Notes under the pieces: model-generated | Database searches by the model: none | Seen by the model: only the letters and a program-made list of their open reading frames with translations | Told to the model about the DNA's origin: nothing | Shown: positions 5,920-25,012 of the stretch, piece after piece | How positions within the stretch are numbered: the first letter of the stretch is position 1 | How the letters are laid out: each line of letters opens with the position of its first letter | Virus record (IMG/VR): IMGVR_UViG_3300042691_039013 | Span: 1 to 26,375 of that record | From: a virus | DNA: 26,375 nucleotides | Strand: one strand, 5' to 3' | Made by a program: the position numbers and the translations under genes

Positions 5920-6322
5920 GGGGGTGTCCGGCATTGATTGGCGTTTGTATGGCAAATGGGCACGTAGTCGCATATCATCTACGACTTTAATAATCGGTGG
6001 TAAATTCTAAACGGCAACGTATTAGACAAAATGGCTCTCGCTGGTCTTATCAGAGAAGAGTCTGCAGTTATCGCTTAATTGAGTTACTGCTTTCGGGTCG
6101 GTTCACATATAACCTAGGAACAGAAGTGATCAAGGTGTAACACCACCATAAGAGTGTTGGAGCACATCGGACGGCTCTTGAAAATCCGGTTCGGGGATTT
6201 TTGGAAGTAATTATCTCAATCTGTAACTTCCTATTTGTCAGTTGAGAACCAATTGACTAAACGTGTAGTCCATTTGAAATATGGCGAACAAGACAGGGGT
6301 TCGACTCCCCTCACCTCCACCA
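5920..6322 (+). ncRNA. ssrA: tmRNA (ssrA) with long atypical tag
   Basis: The ends form the tRNA-like domain: GGGGGTG (5920-5926) pairs with CACCTCC (6312-6318), including the G3-U pair seen in bacterial tmRNAs, followed by A and an encoded CCA. The T arm reads GGGGTTCGACTCCCC. Resumption is placed at GGC 6013-6015: this is 93 bases from the 5' end (about 90 in E. coli) and the preceding AATTCTAAAC resembles the AATTTAAGT before GGC in Bacteroidota tmRNAs. The frame then runs 21 codons to TAA at 6076 and ends EESAVIA, instead of the usual 10 or so codons ending ALAA. The role is rescue of stalled ribosomes and tagging for proteolysis. A TAGTCGCA at 5965 also resembles an E. coli resume site but sits in a likely hairpin only 50 bases in. 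Confidence 0.93.
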
Positions 6323-15040: not shown

Positions 15041-15149
15041 TAGTCAGGACAGGATTCGAACCTGTACGGTATCCGCAGATACCTCTCACTTGCGTTCTCT
15101 ACCTCATTAGGTTTCCGTGATTAACGTCTATCTTTTCCGCCACCTGACT
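15041..15149 (-). tRNA. tRNA-like gene, shell family member 1 (oversized)
   Basis: Acceptor AGTCAGG/CCTGACT, D arm GCGGAAAAGATAGACGT, a perfect variable-type hairpin GGTATC-TGCG-GATACC and T arm ACAGG-TTCGAAT-CCTGT. Where the anticodon arm should be, TCAC and GTGA enclose 27 bases (GGAAACCTAATG and on) without a T33-type anticodon loop. Anticodon not assigned. Confidence 0.6.
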
Positions 15150-15655: not shown

Positions 15656-15661
15656 ATTTTG

Positions 15662-15754
15662 CTGACCAATCAGGAATTGAACCTGAATCCCCCGACCCTT
15701 AGCACCTCCGTATGGGAGGCCTCCAGGGCCAGTGTGCCCATTACACCATAGTCA
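15662..15754 (-). tRNA. tRNA-like gene with 29-nt anticodon loop, anticodon unassigned
   Basis: Acceptor TGACTAT/TTGGTCA (last pair mismatched), D stem TGT/ACA, anticodon stem TGGCC/GGTCG, T arm TCAGG-TTCAATT-CCTGA, discriminator G. The anticodon loop (15698-15726) is 29 bases and holds its own hairpin CCTCC-CATAC-GGAGG. If C32-T33 start the loop, GGA would be the anticodon, but the class I variable loop does not fit Ser. Gly is otherwise missing from the set. Confidence 0.6.
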
Positions 15755-20371: not shown

Positions 20372-20474
20372 TAGTCAGGACAGGATTCGAACCTGCATTA
20401 GCTTTATCATTCAGAGTGCCATTAGCTGTTATCTCAACCGTGAGGGTGCCGATTTACCATTAATCCACCTGACT
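20372..20474 (-). tRNA. tRNA-like gene, shell family member 2 (oversized)
   Basis: Acceptor AGTCAGG/CCTGACT, D arm GATT-AATGGTA-AATC, T arm GCAGG-TTCGAAT-CCTGT. The 53-base core between them has a CTCA-CGGT-TGAG hairpin and two copies of CATTAGCT (plus strand) but no anticodon arm that I can draw. Anticodon not assigned. Confidence 0.55.
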
Positions 20475-20534: not shown

Positions 20535-20644
20535 TAGTCAGGACAGGATTCGAACCTGTATTCTTGAATTATGACGACAGTTCGCGAGTCTGTAGTATCA
20601 AGATTATCTACTATTTAGCGTCTAACCAATTCCGCCACCTGACT
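20535..20644 (-). tRNA. tRNA-like gene, shell family member 3 (oversized)
   Basis: Acceptor AGTCAGG/CCTGACT, classic Leu-type D arm GCGGAATTGGTTAGACGC, T arm ACAGG-TTCGAAT-CCTGT. The 57-base core allows TAGTA-(11 nt)-TACTA, ACAG-ACTCGCGAA-CTGT and TCTTGA/TCAAGA, which cannot all form with a standard anticodon arm. Core length equals that of member 1. Confidence 0.58.
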
Positions 20645-22090: not shown

Positions 22091-22237
22091 TAGTCAGGAA
22101 AGGATTTGCACCCATACGTTTTAGTTTTGGAGTTGCGTATCACTAAACATAACGCGATACATTAACTGATGATATACGATTGCCTAATTCGTATCTAAAA
22201 CTACATTTTAGCGTCTTCTCCATTCCGCCACCTGACT
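22091..22237 (-). tRNA. tRNA-like gene, shell family member 4 (147 nt)
   Basis: Acceptor AGTCAGG/CCTGACT and D arm GCG-(GAATGGAGAAGA)-CGC are as in the other members. The T arm is degenerate: GGG-TGCAAAT-CCT. The core, more than 90 bases, is GTTTTAG/CTAAAAC enclosing ATACGA-ATTAGGCAA-TCGTAT (nine-base loop) and GTATC/GATAC hairpins. Longest of the family; anticodon not assigned. Confidence 0.5.
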
Positions 22238-22380: not shown

Positions 22381-22487
22381 AAGTCAGGACAGGATTCGAA
22401 CCTGTATTAAGCTACATATTGTGTGGGTGTCATCTCAAATGTCTTCCAAACAATCATCGCTCTACCGATAGATTTCACCACCTGACT
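22381..22487 (-). tRNA. tRNA-like gene, shell family member 5 (oversized)
   Basis: Acceptor AGTCAGG/CCTGACT, T arm ACAGG-TTCGAAT-CCTGT. An ATTGT/ACAAT stem, where the anticodon stem should be, encloses 27 bases beginning TTGGAAGAC and ending ACACCCAC. If TTG and CCAC were joined, the loop TTGCCAC would read Gly (GCC), but this is not unique. Confidence 0.55.
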
Positions 22488-22718: not shown

Positions 22719-22806
22719 AAGTCAGGACAGGATTCGAACCTGTATCAATGATGTGTTTCGCTTCCACCACATTACCACGAATTGACTCCAATTCCGCCAC
22801 CTGACT
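22719..22806 (-). tRNA. tRNA-like gene, shell family member 6
   Basis: Acceptor AGTCAGG/CCTGACT, T arm ACAGG-TTCGAAT-CCTGT. The D region (GCGGAATTGGAGTCAATTCGT) forms GAATT/AATTC. The anticodon stem ATGTG/CACAT encloses 12 bases (GTGGAAGCGAAA), not seven, and has no T33. 88 nt in total. Confidence 0.58.
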
Positions 22807-23069: not shown

Positions 23070-23144
23070 AAGTCAGGACAGGAGTCGAACCTGTTTCTAT
23101 AGAGCATAACTCCCTCTATCGTGATCCCCTTACACCACCTGACT
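23070..23144 (-). tRNA. tRNA-like gene, shell family member 7 (expanded anticodon loop)
   Basis: The most tRNA-like member, 75 nt: acceptor AGTCAGG/CCTGACT, D arm GTG-TAAGGGGAT-CAC, variable AGAA, T arm ACAGG-TTCGACT-CCTGT. The anticodon stem ATAGAG/CTCTAT has six pairs and a nine-base loop GGAGTTATG. No seven-base register with T33 is possible, so the anticodon cannot be assigned. Confidence 0.65.
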
Positions 23145-23740: not shown

Positions 23741-23839
23741 TGGTGAACCGGAGTGGGGTCGAACCACTAACCTACAGCTTCTCAGTAATACAAAATATAG
23801 ACTGAGAAGGCTGTTGCTCTTCCATTGAGCTACCGGTCC
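23741..23839 (-). tRNA. tRNA-Arg (UCU) with 24-nt insertion in the anticodon loop
   Basis: Acceptor GGACCGG/CCGGTTC, D arm GCTC-AATGGAA-GAGC, T arm AGTGG-TTCGACC-CCACT, A73 and encoded CCA: all regular. The anticodon stem ACAGC/GCTGT encloses 31 bases (23779-23809). Taking C32-T33-TCT, then 24 bases, then A37-A38 restores a normal loop (UCU). The inserted part pairs with the anticodon: CTTCTCAG with CTGAGAAG. Anticodon assignment depends on exact removal of the insert. Confidence 0.78.
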
Positions 23840-23849
23840 AAAAACAAGG

Positions 23850-24029
23850 AAAACAGAAGATGGGGGAGTGGACATCTGTTTTTATGATTGGCGTTACTTT
23901 GCTACTGCGTGGCCCCGAAATCCCAATCAACCTAATAATTTGTGATAAGAGAATGTCCCAGCCGCCTCCTTCTCTTATCTAACATACACTGACAGCTCAA
24001 CACGGCTTGACTGATTATGATGTATGTTA
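23850..24029 (-). ncRNA. Structured RNA with four long perfect hairpins
   Basis: Four consecutive stem-loops on the minus strand: TAACATACA/TGTATGTTA (9 bp, 24021-24029 with 23980-23988), GATAAGAGAA/TTCTCTTATC (10 bp, 23970-23979 with 23944-23953), TGATTGG/CCAATCA (7 bp, 23923-23929 with 23885-23891) and AAAACAGA/TCTGTTTT (8 bp, 23875-23882 with 23850-23857). Stem 1 holds a smaller TCAA/TTGA hairpin. The 180 bases hold no ORF and no tRNA. It lies between two insertion-bearing tRNA genes. Confidence 0.75.
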
Positions 24030-24036
24030 TTTAATG

Positions 24037-24149
24037 TGACTTTGGTCGGAGTCGAACCGACACGGACATTACTGTCCAAGGGATTAACGGCTCAATGTTC
24101 TAAAGATCCCGTTAAGTCCCTCGCGTGCTACCTATTTCGCCACAAAGCC
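24037..24149 (-). tRNA. tRNA-Leu (UAA) with 26-nt insertion in the anticodon loop
   Basis: Acceptor GGCTTTG/CAAAGTC, D arm GCG/CGC, class II variable arm GGACA-GTAA-TGTCC, T arm GTCGG-TTCGACT-CCGAC, A73. The anticodon stem AGGGA/TCCCT encloses 33 bases (24084-24116). C32-T33-TAA, 26 inserted bases, A37-A38 restores UAA. The insert pairs with the anticodon: TTAACGG with CCGTTAA. The 5' end overlaps the last codons of the nuclease gene at 24132-24788. Confidence 0.82.
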
Positions 24150-24788
24150 ATTCTCTTTCAAAAATAACAAATAATCTGTATCTAAAAAAGGATTCCAGTT
24201 ATTTTTGACTAAATAAATGAATTTACGAGAAGTTCCTTGTGAAATATTGTATCTGTTCATCAAAAAAATTCTACCAAATCCATATTTTGAAAAATCCCAA
24301 TTTTCATTTATGAAATCTTGATAAACATCAATTATTTTAACCCAACTTGGAATATCTGAATTGATATTACGCCAAGGTTTTTTTTCAAAATTCGGGTTAT
24401 TACTTCCTTTCATTTTTTCAGAAGCATTTCTTTGATATTCCGGATCCTGCCTTACCTTTTTCATTGATTCGGAAACTCTTTTTTTCAAAACTTCATCCCA
24501 AATTGTACATTTTCCTAATGCACGATTGAGACATTTTCGGTCTTGAATATTTTCTTTAATAAATTCATATTCTAAACCTAAAGCTTGTTTCTCATTATCA
24601 CAAATTGTGATAATTTCAGGTTTGAAATAATCAATACCATTGGTGAATATCATTTCCTTTATTAAAGAAGATGATGTAAAATATTTTTTCCACAGGTCAT
24701 CAATTGGATTACCCTCATAATCCCACCGGACACCAAAATAATATTCACCTTCCACAGAAGTTATTTTATAAACATAAGGTTTTGCCAT
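24132..24788 (-). CDS. GIY-YIG-like homing endonuclease
   Basis: 218 residues. Residues 4-30 (PYVYKITSVEGEYYFGVRWD) hold a GIY-YIG-type start: VYK, then YYFGV (replacing the usual YIG). ALGLEYEFIKENIQDRKCLN provides the conserved Glu. The middle (KKRVSESMKKVRQDPEYQRN, KMKGSNNPNF) resembles the NUMOD-type DNA-binding motifs found in phage homing enzymes; the C-terminus has a possible helix-turn-helix (MNRYNISQGTSRKFIY). The last six codons and the stop fall in the tRNA-Leu acceptor and D arm, so gene and tRNA are physically joined. Whether it is active is unknown. Confidence 0.75.
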   Translation of the reverse strand: MAKPYVYKITSVEGEYYFGVRWDYEGNPIDDLWKKYFTSSSLIKEMIFTNGIDYFKPEIITICDNEKQALGLEYEFIKENIQDRKCLNRALGKCTIWDEVLKKRVSESMKKVRQDPEYQRNASEKMKGSNNPNFEKKPWRNINSDIPSWVKIIDVYQDFINENWDFSKYGFGRIFLMNRYNISQGTSRKFIYLVKNNWNPFLDTDYLLFLKENGFVAK

Positions 24789-24853: not shown

Positions 24854-25012
24854 CTGCACTGAGAGGATTCGAACCATCCATGCAGGGATTCGGTAAAAAA
24901 CAACTAGCCGGCTTCGTGGTCAACCCATATTTTCTACCTATTTCCGGTTCTGCGCCCCCGAGACGAGGGGGTGTGTCTGCCAAGGGAGCGACCCCTATTT
25001 CACCACAGTGCA
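24854..25012 (-). tRNA. tRNA-like gene, 159 nt, anticodon unassigned
   Basis: Acceptor TGCACTG/CAGTGCA (perfect, G73) and a TTCGAAT T loop with a poorly paired stem (GATGG/CCTCT). Between them lie 120 bases: GTG/CAC, CCCCC-TCGTCTC-GGGGG and a tail with CCGG and GGG/CCC pairings. Far too large for a normal tRNA; no anticodon arm identified. Could carry an insertion or be a tRNA-like RNA. Confidence 0.5.

Follow-up and report, generated by a model that had tools for sequence, protein, structure and literature searches.

Short inserts covering the anticodon of phage tRNA genes: a probable new class of small tRNA introns

tRNA introns that are cut by proteins and then ligated are held to be archaeal and eukaryotic, those of bacteria to be self-splicing (PMC4090602). 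Which kind of intron, if any, interrupts phage tRNA genes is the question raised by the 26-kb virus record described here (its whole stretch of 26,375 nucleotides is called the window). The tRNA array on its minus strand consists of 18 ordinary tRNAs and two interrupted ones, tRNA-Arg(UCU) and tRNA-Leu(UAA), with anticodon loops of 31 and 33 nt, respectively (Table 1). An earlier note made from the letters of this DNA had located both genes and given these loop lengths correctly; both lie on the minus strand. Its inserts of 24 and 26 bases behind the anticodon were borne out in size, with the junction between positions 36 and 37 (36/37). Together with its insert tRNA-Arg still scores 56 bits against the Rfam tRNA model (gathering threshold 29). 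The interrupted tRNA-Leu is called as a tRNA neither by Rfam nor by ARAGORN without intron option; minus its insert the loop reads CTTAA/AA, matching the uninterrupted tRNA-Leu(UAA) of relatives.

Table 1. Positions of the tRNA genes, inserts, neighbouring genes and tRNA-like elements (window coordinates unless another record is named)
Feature	Position	Strand	Remarks
tRNA-Arg(UCU), interrupted, encoded CCA	23741..23839	-	uninterrupted orthologue in L001/L002
24-nt insert CAGTCTATATTTTGTATTACTGAG, at 36/37 of tRNA-Arg	23781..23804	-	junction fixed by L001/L002 alignment; pairing
tRNA-Leu(UAA), interrupted, type II	24037..24149	-	in-silico removal gives tRNA-Leu(taa)
26-nt insert CGGGATCTTTAGAACATTGAGCCGTT, at 36/37 of tRNA-Leu	24086..24111	-	loop of uninterrupted relatives; pairing
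GIY-YIG homing-endonuclease-like ORF (SegE-like, phrog_314)	24132..24788	-	equals L094:356-1012
T4 Rnl1-family RNA ligase, candidate sealing enzyme	8905..9969	-	PF09511, 66.5 bits
Calcineurin-like metallophosphoesterase near ligase	10466..11113	-	PF00149
cRec (cyclic-phosphate processing receiver) domain protein	11100..11522	-	PF20274, 84 bits
tRNA-Arg(UCU), misannotated (PX29)	NC_023688.1 101162-101261
tRNA-Arg(UCU), misannotated (Aeh1)	NC_005260.1 114904-115008
tRNA-Arg(UCU), omitted (Ah1)	NC_055733.1 near 102761-102861
Nested tRNA-Phe(GAA) in tRNA-Arg(UCU)	L216 4972-5121; L322 2025-2174		CCA end in L322
AGTCAGG elements	15041-15149, 20372-20474, 20535-20644, 22091-22237, 22381-22487, 22719-22806, 23070-23144	-
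tRNA-like element beside other tRNAs	15661-15754; L003 18802-18902; L007 11940-12054
Long tRNA-like element with second inserted block	24855-25010; L086 9082-9229
Vibrio phage D479 oversize tRNA-like genes	L435 1420-1543, 1571-1693, 1710-1825, 2735-2854
tmRNA gene	5920-6322	+	85 bits against Rfam RF00023; not in ARAGORN list

A comparison with the tRNA genes of related phages, as the earlier note had proposed, revealed the same tRNA-Arg without insert in L001 and L002. Since this orthologue aligns over 72 of 72 positions (97.2%) without any gap, the junction 36/37 is unambiguous in tRNA-Arg. The RNA ligase of these two phages is 79% identical to the window ligase. A second presence/absence pair, with an equally unambiguous junction, is formed by Aeromonas phage PX29 (26-nt insert) and phage phiAS5, which has the uninterrupted gene at the same site after gene 57B. 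An assembly artefact is ruled out by L094, a contig from an independent sample in which both genes occur with inserts identical to those of the window. No phage record matched the window tRNA-Arg in a BLAST search.

The patterns used for searching IMG/VR fixed a common D-arm together with parts of the anticodon loop and the T arm, and their matches had to show all four stems (acceptor, D, anticodon and T) to be retained. At least a dozen further IMG/VR records, among them PX29, contain such interrupted genes; the Arg pattern gave six true matches among viruses. According to BLAST AsFcp_1 and AsFcp_2 carry the corresponding interrupted gene in the same form as PX29, and it is also found in Ah1, avDM12-TAAL, Aeh1, AsFcp_4 and phiWae14. 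Uninterrupted genes occur in Acinetobacter phage 313 and in Aeromonas phages Aswh_1 and ZPAH1, and no insert was found in isolate relatives of L324, L354, L325, L330 and L358. The IMG/VR patterns and the Aeromonas isolates thus comprise at least 20 distinct interrupted genes (18 beyond the window) with the anticodons UCU (10), UAA (8), UAU (1) and UUC (1). The junction is 36/37 in all of them and the inserts are 24-40 nt long, variable in sequence and common in their pairing scheme. Judged from these sequences, phages that are not related to one another share this interrupted design. When 84,980 bacterial and archaeal genomes were scanned with the Arg(UCU) pattern, built on one D-arm sequence, a single match came up, which is not a tRNA. 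Chance tRNA look-alikes were rejected, since 2.6 Mb of related loci, scanned under strict structural criteria, returned only the two known genes. In database entries the interrupted tRNA-Arg(UCU) appears as a split “tRNA-Lys” (PX29) or as “tRNA-Glu” (Aeh1) or is omitted (Ah1), and Petrov 2010 does not mention the insert of PX29.

All 20 genes share a predicted fold that starts with a 5-bp anticodon stem, leaves out C32, continues with the pairs 33-38, 34-37, 35-i(-1) and 36-i(-2) and ends in the insert's own hairpin. Positions 35 and 36 are paired to the insert in each gene, and 35, 36, 37, i(-1) and i(-2) are predicted to be paired with a probability of at least 0.92 throughout. Seven members show a mismatch at i1 (three) or i2 (four), and an internal loop often follows further on. 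The anticodon-covering helix claimed for the two window genes by the earlier note is present, with junction bases paired at a probability of at least 0.95, but it is not flush with the anticodon stem as C32 is left out. Pair runs of this length occur in 0.1% (Arg) and 0.6% (Leu) of insert shuffles.

The covariation check put forward in the same note came out in favour of its reading. Among the insert-involving cells 110 of 120 pair, compared to 60.5 in shuffles (sd 6.8, maximum 91), and 82 of 100 insert-insert pairs are formed versus 58.5 when shuffling is confined to the anticodon class (sd 4.0; 0 of 5000), both tests being somewhat inflated by kinship such as that of the nearly duplicate Aeh1 and Ah1 inserts. 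The pairing signal is drawn from several anticodons and from unrelated inserts. The class had been separated from other inserts partly by requiring exact complementarity to 35-36; without this requirement seven of about 16 U34 type I candidates from the collection still show it (about one by chance), and so do all eight Leu candidates. U34 tRNAs are the expected hosts of such an insert because position 34 must pair with A37. The matches listed include only U34 tRNAs, with one pattern itself requiring U34 and a broader one free of this restriction.

Several properties suggest that the interrupted tRNAs are functional. In-silico removal of the insert restores the expected isotype in all 20 genes (ARAGORN), which none of them gives with the insert left in, and the exon stems are intact. 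No other Arg(UCU) or Leu(UAA) gene was found in the window, which is a genome fragment, and AGA is its top Arg codon (65%) and TTA its top Leu codon (37%). In PX29 the interrupted gene is the sole tRNA-Arg of the array. The interpretation of the inserts as short introns of phage tRNA genes, already proposed in the earlier note, is strongly supported by presence/absence alleles, recurrence and anticodon covariation, and on these sequence data it is quite probable that they are removed by some route.

It could be argued that the unspliced form itself is useful, with the masked anticodon shielding the tRNA from host anticodon nucleases or acting as decoy. The anticodon is fully paired in the predicted fold of every member, and defences that cleave tRNA are documented, as are the counter-measures of phages (PMC7824862). 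Nevertheless, we regard this as very improbable: it explains the fixed 36/37 junction no better than splicing does, and AGA and TTA codons would be left without a decoding tRNA unless the insert is removed later.

The GIY-YIG ORF of the window has 18 nt in common with the 5' end of tRNA-Leu and possibly drives the spread of the insert. Endonuclease-like genes adjoin interrupted tRNAs also in L336 (GIY-YIG) and L325 (HNH), and further such neighbours are found in phiWae14 (VSR-like), L358 (HNH) and L353 (PDDEXK, Pfam only). At a distance of less than 100 nt from interrupted genes five of eight adjacent ORFs are endonuclease-like according to PHROGs (six with Pfam), in contrast with four of 30 ORFs adjoining UCU/UAA genes without insert (hand-calculated p about 0.01, post hoc). 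With small numbers and a post hoc comparison this suggests homing as known from group I introns, yet without a ribozyme. The same adjacency would also fit inserts that stay in, protecting anticodon-loop DNA from a homing endonuclease at the price of a dead tRNA gene. This possibility seems unlikely, as DNA resistance alone requires neither a fixed RNA fold nor a single junction, while the exon stems are intact, the inserts keep their anticodon pairing and no further genes were found for the heavily used codons in question. Moreover, splicing introns spread by homing fit the adjacency equally well.

If the inserts are introns, they have to be compared with the known families. Group I introns of bacterial and organellar tRNAs likewise occupy the anticodon loop, and homing endonucleases may accompany their spread. 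They possess, however, a conserved catalytic core and an RNA of about 200 nt or more, for which the phage inserts (24-40 nt) are far too short, and up to E = 1 no group I family of Rfam matches the window. Group II introns are rejected likewise by insert size and by the lack of an Rfam match. With archaeal bulge-helix-bulge introns the phage inserts share the short length, the location in the anticodon loop, the pairing with anticodon bases, the variable sequence and, in the removal model outlined below only, the dependence on proteins. Archaeal tRNA introns occur at other positions besides their canonical one. The latter is 37/38 in both archaea and eukaryotes (PMC4090602), in contrast with 36/37 in all 20 phage genes. 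Instead of 3-nt bulges the phage inserts show a continuous helix with paired junction bases in all 20 genes, disturbed only by the single i1 or i2 mismatches in seven. The tRNA splicing endonuclease EndA (PF01974), typical of the archaeal system, was found in none of 16 phage records, while it was detected in the four archaeal controls and in no bacterial one. Additionally, all inserts observed are from phages. The nuclear tRNA introns of eukaryotes (processed by the Sen complex and tRNA ligase) are similarly short, adjacent to and paired with the anticodon and follow the same cut-and-ligate logic, but differ from the phage inserts with their 36/37 site and paired junctions. To our knowledge no Sen-type splicing endonuclease is to be expected in bacterial hosts. 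Thus, the archaeal and eukaryotic likeness seen by the earlier note holds in a loose sense, whereas insertion site, paired junctions and absence of EndA from the 16 phage records speak against a closer one. Provided that they are removed, we rate the inserts as a new class since they resemble cut-and-ligate introns and yet lack the defining features of the known families. The sequence evidence suggests that the bacterial world has a class of small tRNA introns of which the open-access full-text literature in PMC yielded no description.

For their removal we tentatively propose an RNase III-type cut followed by an ATP-dependent ligase, a model to which we assign slightly less than an even chance. 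Host bacteria have RNase III, and the sealing of broken anticodon loops is a function of T4 Rnl1. The anticodon arm of the precursor would run past the unpaired C32 into the helix and further into the intron's own hairpin. Both junctions would lie inside this helix, staggered by two base pairs, and cutting would leave 2-nt 3' overhangs on both products. Indeed, the junctions in the predicted fold are placed as for a pair of cuts in a single helix, offset by a 2-nt 3' stagger, as is typical of RNase III-type enzymes. The resulting 3'-OH and 5'-phosphate ends would be those required by Rnl ligases (PMC7824862), and the phage Rnl1-type ligase would seal 36 to 37 and restore the 7-nt anticodon loop. 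In the anticodon arm alone the helix comprises 14-22 bp, interrupted by a bulge or an internal loop, which is short for RNase III, whose substrates have about two helical turns; stacking on the D-stem could lengthen it. The mismatches at i1 and i2 adjoin the proposed cut and count against the model, and phage-encoded RNase III was found in none of the 16 phage records.

The window ligase matches the nucleotidyltransferase domain PF09511 over residues 45-234 and the T4 RNA ligase 1 structures 2c5u and 5tt6 over 43-276 and contains the KxDG motif (EKLDG), and in L354 an Rnl1 gene is located 56 nt upstream of the interrupted tRNA-Leu. The earlier note had considered two such genes together with an RNA ligase unexpected; a ligase as such is not, with relatives of the window ligase occurring in 1977 of 50,697 phage records. 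Ligase genes are present in six of eight large records with interrupted tRNAs versus six of 15 controls (p about 0.12 by hand; not significant), so a ligase as strict companion of the inserts was dismissed, and none was seen in the records L330 and L385. Where records are genome fragments, such absences carry less weight. The T4 Pnkp/Rnl1 repair after PrrC similarly includes Rnl1-type sealing of an anticodon-loop break. There, however, the gene is uninterrupted and the cut represents damage, whereas in the phage genes an encoded insert would set the cut.

The main rival involves another nuclease together with healing enzymes, because the cRec protein and the phosphoesterase of the window would fit a different end chemistry. 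According to this possible but rather doubtful scheme a nuclease, either a dedicated one of the phage or another one of the host, would produce 2',3'-cyclic phosphate and 5'-OH ends, which cRec, phosphoesterase, 2H/Acb1-type enzyme and kinase would heal and Rnl1, Rnl2 or RtcB would seal. Both window proteins, encoded near the ligase, possibly have a role in RNA-end processing, and as its neighbours they would agree better with cyclic-phosphate ends than with RNase III-type ones. A role of cRec in the processing of cyclic ends has been proposed and linked to RNA ligases (PMC7824862). Furthermore, the interrupted tRNA-Arg of L330 and of the Aeromonas phages has a 2H/Acb1-type gene immediately upstream, a metallophosphoesterase gene is situated close to the interrupted gene in L251, and RtcB is present in L344. 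On the other hand, no candidate nuclease was found, and gene 57B also adjoins the uninterrupted gene of phiAS5, which makes its location independent of the insert.

Taken as a whole, the RNase III-type reading can be extended, with less confidence than we would place in an even bet, to a separate class of phage tRNA introns, restricted to viruses in the data presented here, cut by RNase III-type or other ordinary endonucleases, resealed by phage ligases and spread or maintained together with homing endonucleases. Its related forms would carry a whole tRNA-Phe or an acceptor-T minihelix nested in the anticodon loop, to be excised by tRNA end-processing enzymes. If true, anticodon-masking phage introns would break the division between archaeal-eukaryotic and bacterial tRNA introns, phage RNA ligases would gain a role in tRNA maturation beside damage repair, a minimal route to tRNA introns would be shown and the missed or misannotated tRNA genes of PX29, Aeh1 and Ah1 would be explained. 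The Aeromonas isolates available in collections make this intron class directly testable.

Besides the 36/37 inserts other unusual tRNA elements were observed. In L216 and L322 a complete tRNA-Phe(GAA) is nested at 34/35 of tRNA-Arg(UCU); both tRNAs would arise if it were excised by tRNA end processing and the host tRNA were then ligated. Among the proteins of L216 are a polynucleotide kinase-like and a nucleotidyltransferase-like one. Loop inserts resembling a minihelix of acceptor stem and T arm were recognized by eye in L386 (start 4219), L401, L387/L415 and L396; most of them end in CCA, and their host tRNAs would read Ile, Lys or Arg after removal. A second interruption class, with small inserts best placed at 34/35 and without anticodon-covering helix, occurs in L268, L303, L215, L321 and L253 (Met CAU) as well as in L217 and L244 (Arg), L228 and L285 (Asn; L285 at 33/34) and L293 (Lys).

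The window itself contains seven tRNA-like elements on the minus strand with a common AGTCAGG acceptor stem, a similar T arm and a mostly Leu-like D arm. Their middles are hypervariable and lack a normal anticodon arm, and at least 147 distinct relatives exist in IMG/VR. Another tRNA-like element, situated beside other tRNAs in the window, L003 and L007, has conserved acceptor, D and T arms but a different long hairpin per phage in place of the anticodon arm, with the hairpin stem changing on both sides. A long tRNA-like element of the window and L086 carries a second inserted block, in which the stretch ATATGGG..GACCAC..AGCCGGC is common to the distant phage. Vibrio phage D479 (OZ195776.1) has four oversize tRNA-like genes of 116-124 nt, in which a TACCGCAA-like motif comes after a common inner hairpin. 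Finally, a tmRNA gene is encoded on the plus strand of the window.
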